A stretch of 64,000 bases of DNA from Clostridia bacterium (lineage in GTDB: Bacteria > Bacillota > Clostridia > UMGS1883): contig JAFVPB010000053.1 of the NCBI GenBank assembly GCA_017505525.1, positions 1 to 64,000 on the forward strand, read 5' to 3'. Shown piece after piece: positions 8,560-9,530 of the stretch. Made by a program: the position numbers and the translations under genes. The notes beneath the pieces are model-generated. The model was not told the origin of the DNA and ran no database searches. It was given only the letters and a program-made list of their open reading frames with translations. Within the stretch, counting starts at the first letter, position 1, and each line of letters starts with the position of its first letter.

Positions 8560-8635
8560 GGGCCATTAGCTCAGCCGGCAGAGCACTTGACTTTTAATCA
8601 AGTTGTCCGGGGTTCGAATCTCCGATGGCTCACCA
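8560..8635 (+). tRNA. tRNA-Lys(TTT)
   Basis: Acceptor GGGCCAT pairs with ATGGCTC with one G-T pair; anticodon loop CTTTTAA gives TTT; T-arm GGGTTCGAATCTC; encoded CCA at 8633-8635. Its last 17 bases plus the following seven are repeated exactly at 9073-9096, ahead of another terminator and hairpin array. Confidence 0.95.
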
Positions 8636-8636
8636 G

Positions 8637-8677
8637 AAAAAAAGACAGATTTCGACAAAGAAATCTGTCTTTTTTTC
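8637..8677 (+). terminator. Terminator of the tRNA cluster
   Basis: A run of A, AGACAGATTTC (8643-8653), loop GACAAA, GAAATCTGTCT (8660-8670), then T. It starts one base after the CCA of tRNA-Lys. Confidence 0.9.
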
Positions 8678-8846
8678 AGCTAAATTCGCGTTCCGCGAGG
8701 TAAATTGAGCAAGCTCAGCTAAATTGCCTGCGGCAGCTAAATGTGCTACGCACGCTGAAAGCGAATTTAATTTAGCTACTCCAAAGGAGTTATTTAGCTA
8801 TTGCGAAGCAATAATTTCGCTTTGCAGCTTGCTGCAAAATTTAGCC
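8678..8846. repeat. Mini-hairpin array 1 (AGCTAAATT linkers)
   Basis: Non-coding. Tiny hairpins alternate with a conserved linker. Left half: linker AGCTAAATT (8678, 8717; variants AGGTAAATT at 8698 and GCTAAAT at 8736) with CGCG-ttc-CGCG (8687-8697), GAGC-aa-GCTC (8707-8716), TGCC-tgc-GGCA (8725-8735), GTGC-tac-GCAC (8743-8753). Right half: the linker appears as its reverse complement, AATTTAGCT (8769, 8792, 8837), with ACTCC-aaa-GGAGT (8778-8790), ATTGC-gaa-GCAAT (8800-8812), TTTGCAGC-tt-GCTGCAAA (8821-8838). TAAATTCGC (8681-8689) and GCGAATTTA (8761-8769) could close a stem around the left half. The stems differ while linkers and loop type are kept. I do not recognise the element. Confidence 0.85.
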
Positions 8847-8884
8847 AAATCACTTTGCATCATTATTGTTCTGACTTGCCAGTT

Positions 8885-8919
8885 AAAAACCGCTTAACCA
8901 ATAGGGTTAGGCGGTTTTT
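8885..8919 (+). terminator. Terminator-like hairpin
   Basis: AAAAACCGCTTAACC (8885-8899) pairs with GGTTAGGCGGTTTTT (8905-8919), with one G-T mismatch-type pair. It has A and T runs on both sides, so it could stop transcription in either direction between arrays 1 and 2. Confidence 0.65.
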
Positions 8920-8934
8920 ACGTTTGCTTGCAAC

Positions 8935-9072
8935 ATAGAGGAGATTCGAACCCTGAGAGGGCAACGAGCGTTAAGAAAACGATTGATAATCGTTTTTAGC
9001 GAAGTTGGTGCGCAGACGGGTACTGCAAGCAAGGCTTGCGGTCGTCAAGCAGGGAAGATGCAAAGCATCTGT
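8935..9072. other. Non-coding spacer with decayed hairpins
   Basis: No gene is supported. The stretch holds several small inverted repeats: an AAAACGAT/ATCGTTTT pair (about 8977-8997), GCAAG...CTTGC (about 9024-9039) and AGATGC-aaa-GCATCT (9056-9070). At 8944-8956 the minus strand reads GGGTTCGAATCTC, like the T-arm of a tRNA, but no matching cloverleaf can be drawn. It may be a remnant of another tRNA or array module. Confidence 0.4.
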
Positions 9073-9120
9073 TCTCCGATGGCTCACCAGAAAAAAGCAC
9101 TTCTTCGGAAGTGCTTTTTT
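9073..9120 (+). repeat. tRNA-Lys 3'-end copy plus UUCG terminator
   Basis: Bases 9073-9096 repeat exactly the last 17 bases of tRNA-Lys and the next seven (8619-8642), including the CCA. The rest of the tRNA is absent, so this is not a functional gene. A terminator follows at once: AAAAAAGCACTTC, loop TTCG, GAAGTGCTTTTTT (9091-9120), a C-UUCG-G tetraloop hairpin. The same order (tRNA end, terminator, array) is seen at the genuine tRNA-Lys. Confidence 0.85.
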
Positions 9121-9299
9121 CAACGAAATAAATCCTTTCAGGATTCGTGAAATGCACTTCGTGCGTGAAATATTGCTACGCAATGTGAAATACGCCTTGC
9201 GGCGTGTGGATTTATTTCATTTCACAGAAAACGAAGTTTTCTATTTCACAATTTACGAAGTAAATTATTTCACATCGAGCTTTAAGCGAGATATTTCAC
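9121..9299. repeat. Mini-hairpin array 2 (GTGAAAT linkers)
   Basis: Same plan as array 1 with different sequence. Left half: ATCCT-ttc-AGGAT (9132-9144), then GTGAAAT linkers at 9147, 9165 and 9185 with GCAC-ttc-GTGC (9154-9164), ATTGC-tac-GCAAT (9172-9184) and ACGCC-ttgc-GGCGT (9192-9205). Right half: linkers inverted to ATTTCAC (9219, 9243, 9267, 9293) around AGAAAAC-gaa-GTTTTCT (9226-9242), AATTTAC-gaa-GTAAATT (9250-9266) and an imperfect hairpin at 9274-9292. GAAATAAATCC (9125-9135) and GGATTTATTTC (9208-9218) are perfect complements able to close the left half. Not coding: the open frame here is a by-product of the repeats. Confidence 0.88.
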
Positions 9300-9318
9300 T
9301 AAAAATATATGTCATCTA

Positions 9319-9368
9319 AACCATTCGGCTCACCAAAACAGAAAAGACACCTATGTGGTGTCTTTTTT
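9319..9368 (+). repeat. Third tRNA-end-like sequence plus terminator
   Basis: GGCTCACCA at 9327-9335 matches the 3' end of tRNA-Lys for nine bases. It is followed by a terminator, AAAAGACACC (9342-9351), loop TATGT, GGTGTCTTTT (9357-9366), and then array 3. The match is short, but its position repeats the module order seen twice upstream. Confidence 0.6.
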
Positions 9369-9384
9369 AAAATTCGACTGATGG

Positions 9385-9530
9385 CGAACTAAATGCATAA
9401 AAGTATGCTAAATTGACCTACAGTTAGATAATGGCAAATTTAATTTAACCACTCCAAAGGAGTTACTTAACTATTGCGAAGAAATGATTTCGCGTTGCCA
9501 CTTGTTGCAAAATTTAGTTGAAACAAACTT
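9385..9530. repeat. Mini-hairpin array 3, decayed relative of array 1
   Basis: Bases 9435-9523 align with 8763-8848 of array 1: CAAATTTAATTTAACC, ACTCC-aaa-GGAGT (9451-9463), then ATTGC-gaa-GAAAT and GCCAC-tt-GTTGC, which correspond to array 1 hairpins but have lost base pairs. Linkers are also worn (TTAACT, TTTAGTTG). The left half (9385-9430) keeps only traces such as CTAAATGCATaaaagtATGCTAAATT. It reads as an older copy no longer under selection for pairing. Confidence 0.7.

Follow-up and report, generated by a model that had tools for sequence, protein, structure and literature searches.

The analyzed window is a 64,000-nt stretch of the genome of a Clostridia bacterium (assembly GCA_017505525.1, contig JAFVPB010000053.1, positions 1 to 64,000). 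Between a tRNA-Lys gene and a gene for an AraC-type regulator, the window contains two arrays of short hairpins, neither of which has a gene for the 23S_rRNA_IVP family of four helix bundle proteins (PF05635, also TIGR02436; hereafter, IVP). The tRNA-Lys gene, the last of five tRNA genes, was found by ARAGORN at positions 8560..8635 of the forward strand, to which all features below belong unless stated otherwise. The first element begins right after its CCA. In the comparison with a copy located behind another tRNA gene (contig C23), identity begins at CCAGAAAAAAAG, exactly past the tRNA CCA.

The first element opens with a perfect terminator-like hairpin of 18 bp (8636..8677), herein referred to as hp0. 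It is followed by array 1 (8678..8845), delineated by the array detector described below and by covariation. This array belongs to type A, its linker changing from GCTAAAT to ATTTAGC. The left linkers (GCTAAAT or GGTAAAT) are located at 8679, 8699, 8718, and 8736, and the right ones (ATTTAGC or ATTTCGC) at 8770, 8792, 8814, and 8839. Four hairpins (8686-8698, 8706-8717, 8725-8735, and 8743-8753) precede the switch and three (8778-8790, 8799-8812, and 8821-8838) follow it. The array can be closed by arm a (TAAATTCGC, 8681..8689) and the central arm a' (GCGAATTTA, 8761..8769). The tail (8847..8882) ends with CCAG; copies on contigs C23 and C14 have a similar tail (GTTGCATCT..GCCAG), with identity to the C23 copy lost in the distal part. 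A further terminator-like hairpin of the intrinsic type (8884..8920) is possibly the displaced native terminator. A separate repeat, element B, occupies positions 8936..9089 and consists of the reverse complement of the tRNA T-arm, a conserved core, and a copy of the tRNA-Lys 3' end.

The second element has its own perfect terminator-like hp0 of 14 bp (9090..9121) and array 2 (9121..9299), delineated by folding and by the detector, in which the linker GTGAAAT changes to ATTTCAC. The left linkers, of the (G)TGAAAT type, are found at 9123, 9147, 9165, and 9185; the right ones, ATTTCA(C), at 9214/9219, 9243, 9267, and 9293. Hairpins are located at 9130-9145, 9154-9164, 9172-9184, and 9192-9205 and then at 9226-9242, 9250-9266, and 9274-9292, and the closing arms at 9125-9135 (5' arm, GAAATAAATCC) and 9208-9218 (centre). 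The tail (9305..9336) is of the CATCTAAACC.TTCGG type, ends with CCA, and recurs after arrays on contigs C1, C23, and others. A reading of 9316-9336 as another copy of the 3' end of tRNA-Lys was rejected, since the comparison with C1 and C23 identified these positions as array tail. A third type-A array, decayed and represented by its right half, was found at 9434..9517 (87% identity to 8761-8844), which argues that the tRNA-Lys locus has received such elements repeatedly.

A reading made from the sequence only had described both arrays, and its plan, coordinates, and sequences were reproduced here, including the flip of the linker to its reverse complement halfway, evident from the linker positions, with four hairpins before the switch and three after it. 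The plan of array 2 holds as well, except that its last hairpin (9274-9292) is imperfect. The complementarity of the left edge to the centre was confirmed in both arrays, with the correction that the 5' arm doubles as the 5' arm of hairpin 1 and so can pair with either of two partners. Each array folds better than shuffled sequences (z of -2.2 and -4.4).

Architecture, pairing, and loops of the arrays

The genome containing the window (2.4 Mb, 71 contigs, 95% complete) was covered by searches and by stretches around the matches, so that the array counts given here are lower bounds. The detector required at least two linkers followed by at least two reverse-complement linkers. It reported 26 arrays in loci of this genome versus 1 in 269 kb of dinucleotide-shuffled sequence; therefore, the arrays are not a product of chance. 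In total, about 23 arrays with at least four linker types (AGCTAAATT, GTGAAAT, GCGATATA, and ATGAAG) were found in this genome: about 11 full type-A arrays, 5 arrays of the GTGAAAT or Gut-1 type (see below), at least 5 of the GCGATATA type, and 1 ATGAAG array. Inverted-linker arrays are also present in related genomes. The proposal that one architecture is shared by differing sequences, made from the two window arrays, extends to at least four linker types.

The common plan is hp0, linker L, arm a, four hairpins separated by L, arm a', the reverse-complement linker L', three hairpins separated by L', and a tail. The hp0 pairs perfectly and in many cases is a terminator that immediately follows a tRNA gene. 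A perfect hairpin adjoins the array in 36 of 83 loci with IVP genes versus 1 of 83 control positions. Two types of tail recur, one of them being GCATCTAAACC..TTCGG..TCTTCCA. A tail of about 27 nt (TTGCATCTAAACCTTATGTGTCGCAAT) was additionally observed alone or flanking two arrays (C35:3594-3620, C20:14576-14602, and C65:27166-27208) and resembles a direct repeat or an independent small dispersed element. In eight IVP loci, the halves of the array are in swapped order, L' half first, and the loop type still tracks the orientation of the linker.

Stems vary from array to array and pairing is kept, as had been suspected. Across 14 type-A arrays, standard pairs make up 98.2% of 384 pair cells, two-sided changes were found at 20 of 29 pairs, and changes on both sides outnumber those on one side by 81 to 7. 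The covariation score is 0.534; it drops to 0.183 when letters are shuffled and does not exceed 0.114 when partners are slid. G.U pairs account for only 3.5% of 1132 pairs in the relatives. The excess of two-sided changes and the low G.U content argue for pairing at the level of DNA, or for concerted copying of the arms, over ordinary RNA evolution. Fold-back templating, suggested earlier as the way in which such arrays are built, is compatible with the joint change of the arms, the scarcity of G.U pairs, and the perfect locus-specific hairpin at the 5' edge; an identical pattern would be expected from selection on DNA pairing.

The flip of loops along with linkers proved to be real and general. 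When the hairpins of the relatives are read on one linker strand, GNA or GNNA accounts for 111 of 174 loops and the reverse type for 3, and the loop-closing pair is C-G in 149 of these hairpins. This rule is valid in both halves of the array, that is, on opposite strands. Background hairpins in loci of the genome have no loop bias (G..A, 85 and 65; T..C, 89 and 63). In DNA, loops of the d(C-GNA-G) and d(C-GNNA-G) kinds have unusual stability. Since GNA/GNNA loops lie on the same linker strand in both halves and both G.U pairs and one-sided changes are few, any recognition of the arrays would be likelier to involve DNA than RNA.

The earlier statement that the arrays correspond to no named element is only partly right. 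The Rfam search gave no real match for array 1. The left half of array 2 is a full match to Gut-1 RNA (RF01706; 9121..9196, 67.6 bits, cut-off 50). A second Gut-1 match, below the cut-off, covers its right half on the reverse strand (9214..9301, 45.2 bits, E 1.9e-7), so Gut-1 matches array 2 on both strands, in opposite halves. Gut-1 is listed in Rfam as an sRNA, promoter-like sequences were read by eye just 5' of hp0 in several intergenic copies, and the gaps between arrays and IVP genes (see below) are so short that transcription of the array as a leader of the IVP gene must be frequent; the arrays may therefore also have an RNA role. The covariation of stems also agrees with the stronger view that the transcript itself is the functional entity, with Gut-1 as a small structured RNA. 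However, in any one transcript only half of the units would have the orientation of the model, and neither the rarity of G.U pairs and one-sided changes nor the confinement of GNA/GNNA loops to one linker strand, regardless of the direction of transcription, agrees with this view, which we consider quite unlikely.

Association with IVP genes

In this genome, each of the four IVP genes lies 17-54 nt downstream of an array: two of type A, one of the Gut-1 type, and one of the ATGAAG type, all these loci being intergenic. In gut Clostridia, a detector match was found within 300 nt upstream of 65 of 99 IVP genes, and at least three linker words within 420 nt upstream of 86 of 99, versus 1 of 90 far upstream, 5 of 96 downstream, and 0 of 99 in shuffled sequences. 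The linker words were picked after the loci had been viewed, so the raw upstream count could be inflated; the positional controls and the tree result below are unaffected. IVP genes with no array exist too, for example at five loci. Arrays followed by an IVP gene were also found in two human-gut phage contigs. As a separate observation, six IVP genes lie within loci of defence type: between hsdS and hsdR; beside cas1/cas2; or between DUF1156 or helicase genes and Swt1-HEPN or N-6 methylase genes.

The linker class follows the phylogeny of the protein. On the IVP tree, it changes 15 times, with a minimum of 10 and a mean of 60.3 for shuffled labels, none of 200 shufflings being as low. Three types of IVP reside together in the genome studied here, and each clusters with IVPs of other genomes having the same linker; thus, the match between linker and IVP is not accounted for by host phylogeny alone. 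Homologues of IVP are pentamers (2rld, five chains; Xcc0516, a solved IVP from Xanthomonas). This protein partner, like the 7-base-repeat versions of the arrays in other lineages, was missed by the sequence-only reading; the array class is real, and what that reading lacked is its protein and the extent of its family.

Two other explanations are touched by these data. According to the first one, the array does no more than regulate the IVP gene in cis, as an autoregulatory leader that functions as RNA or operator DNA, and the solitary arrays are immobile remnants of IVP loss. In most loci, the gap between the array and the downstream start of the IVP gene is indeed 16-60 nt, which often leaves no room for a promoter, and the co-evolution of linker and IVP would be expected for such a leader. 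Yet this genome, with about 23 arrays and 4 IVP genes, has solitary and IVP-linked arrays at a ratio of about 5:1, and several of the solitary ones are 94-97% identical at unrelated sites, in tandem behind tRNA genes and complete with tails. We therefore regard a purely regulatory leader as unlikely. The second explanation is mutational: repeated insertion near terminators, followed by quasipalindrome correction through template switching, would make and perfect hairpins that have no function, with the linkers as passengers. Such a process would account for arms that change together and for the perfect locus-specific hp0, whereas a neutral process predicts neither the tracking of IVP clade by linker class nor the preservation of loop type, and we give this explanation hardly any credence.

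Dispersal and insertion sites

Near-identical copies of the arrays occur in unrelated flanks, in line with the mobile or dispersed class that had been proposed. The copies are 94-97% identical over about 230-260 nt. Those of the GCGATATA type share 96-97% identity across hp0, array, and tail, and the type-A copies of the window and C23 share 94%. Sites behind tRNA genes or terminators are preferred: loci with an array and an IVP gene are located behind co-directional tRNA genes of many isoacceptors in 25 of 80 cases versus 0 of 80 controls. The hp0 of array 1 is nearly the same as the hp0 preceding a GCGATATA-type array in another genome, which indicates that modules recombine. When two IVP-linked loci were used to look for empty and filled sites in ten relatives, no clean pair was obtained, the flanks being too diverged. 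In relatives from the same genus, the tRNA-Lys gene is followed by other terminators with the array absent, and divergence of the flanks is again too high for these events to be polarised.

Two further observations concern the target sites. In the ATGAATTG clade, an array with an IVP gene is found at the 3' end of a gene for an RlmD-like rRNA methyltransferase in six loci. Here hp0 is formed by the last codons of this gene paired with their reverse complement, and the reading frame is extended; this would fit fold-back copying, with conserved selection on the hairpin as the alternative. Element B was found behind tRNA genes in the window (8936-9089), on five other contigs of the genome (on one of them as two copies in tandem), and at two further loci. 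It starts with the reverse complement of the T-arm of its own tRNA, contains the core GGGCAACGAGCGT..CGATTGATAATCG..GGTGCGCAGACGGGTA..GGTCGTCAAGCAGG, and terminates in a duplicate of the 3' end of the tRNA, after which the terminator is often duplicated as well. Element B looks like a product of fold-back copying of its target.

Dispersal between genes, hairpins with a fixed flanking tag, and inverted arrangement of units are also characteristic of REPINs and BIMEs, palindromic repeats moved by the single-strand (HUH/Y1) transposase of another element. The arrays described here differ in having several units per half and variable stems. Their partner gene encodes IVP, no transposase, and no Y1 transposase was detected with the PF01797 profile in this genome assembly, which is 95% complete. 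An origin of this kind is very improbable.

Taken with a probability of about 0.6, our preferred reading is that the window arrays are non-autonomous copies of a dispersed element whose full form carries a PF05635/TIGR02436 gene and whose linkers are recognised by IVP. Such an element consists of a terminator-like hp0, linkers of 7-9 nt with hairpins, inverting halfway, and a short tail; in the full element the IVP gene stands directly behind the array, and solitary arrays would be non-autonomous. We infer that the IVP pentamer binds the repeated linker, with approximately one repeat per subunit and more likely on DNA than on RNA, and that this binding may control either the movement of the element or the IVP gene itself. 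The hairpins probably space the linkers and expose them in single-stranded or extruded DNA. Solitary arrays may be moved in trans, by some enzyme or by host replication and repair, and would settle, as both window arrays would have done, behind tRNA genes and terminators. The PF00078 profile found no reverse transcriptase in this genome, and the Rfam scan found no intron family.

Repeats before IVP genes in other lineages and known systems

Forty IVP loci from other classes of Bacillota and from plasmids of cyanobacteria, Bacteroidota, Spirochaetota, and Chloroflexota were additionally analyzed. The stretch before the IVP gene is mostly a tandem 7-base repeat: the best lag was 7 in 27 of 40 loci versus 1 of 40 controls, and the mean period-7 self-match was 0.469 versus 0.267. 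Repeats of 7 bases were also found at four IVP loci inside 23S rRNA, and heptamer units, for example GGAAGTC and AATCCCC, lie upstream of IVP genes on plasmids of Nostoc and Planktothrix. At four loci outside Clostridia, heptamer or short-unit arrays before IVP genes invert midway, with no interleaved hairpins.

On a broader scale, PF05635 proteins and their cognate arrays of 7-9 nt may form one widespread, unrecognised class of selfish elements, in which a non-catalytic pentamer recognises its own repeat, copies occur in intergenic regions, plasmids, phages, and 23S rRNA, and the hairpin form of gut Clostridia has been built and perfected by fold-back copying. This generalisation is tentative, and we see it as somewhat less likely than not. 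The function and movement of the 23S rRNA intervening sequences (IVSs) have been open for decades (PMC4990558), Gut-1 has no known role, and no explanation is generally accepted for the heptamers of cyanobacteria and xanthomonads. Should all of these repeats be recognised by one protein family, the three puzzles would merge into one that can be addressed by a simple binding assay, and the linker swaps between IVP clades would serve as a ready-made specificity code.

Gut-1 was published as a presumed noncoding RNA known from human gut samples only (Weinberg et al., 2010; PMC2864571). Scanning of 18 relatives and phage contigs with its model gave matches to array halves preceding IVP genes in 12 of them. 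It covers one half and one linker type, whereas the inverted half, the other linkers, hp0, the tail, and the IVP gene are outside the model.

The IVSs carrying an S23/IVP gene encode the same protein family, and their repeats are located directly before the IVP start, as here; in Coxiella, the S23 gene of the IVS is reported to be preceded by heptamers (PMC4990558). In the open-access literature, this is the only link between IVP and such repeats that was found, and the absence of others is weak evidence. Unlike IVSs, neither the window arrays nor the IVP loci of this genome are inserted inside a 23S rRNA gene: the arrays are intergenic, located mostly behind tRNA genes, terminators, or gene ends, and in the majority of cases have no IVP gene. 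Their repeats also alternate with hairpins and invert.

Heptameric tandem repeats have been described in Nostoc (GGGGA(C/T)T) and in Xanthomonas (GGGAATC), with no explanation and no mention of IVP (PMC4692102). They are likewise intergenic units of 7 nt, with no hairpins interleaved.

Finally, the Avd protein of diversity-generating retroelements is a homologous pentameric four-helix bundle (PMC10053308); Avd systems differ from the elements described here in having a reverse transcriptase, which this genome lacks according to the profile search above. The IVP family would link Gut-1 RNA, the intervening sequences of rRNA, and the 7-base repeats of bacteria.
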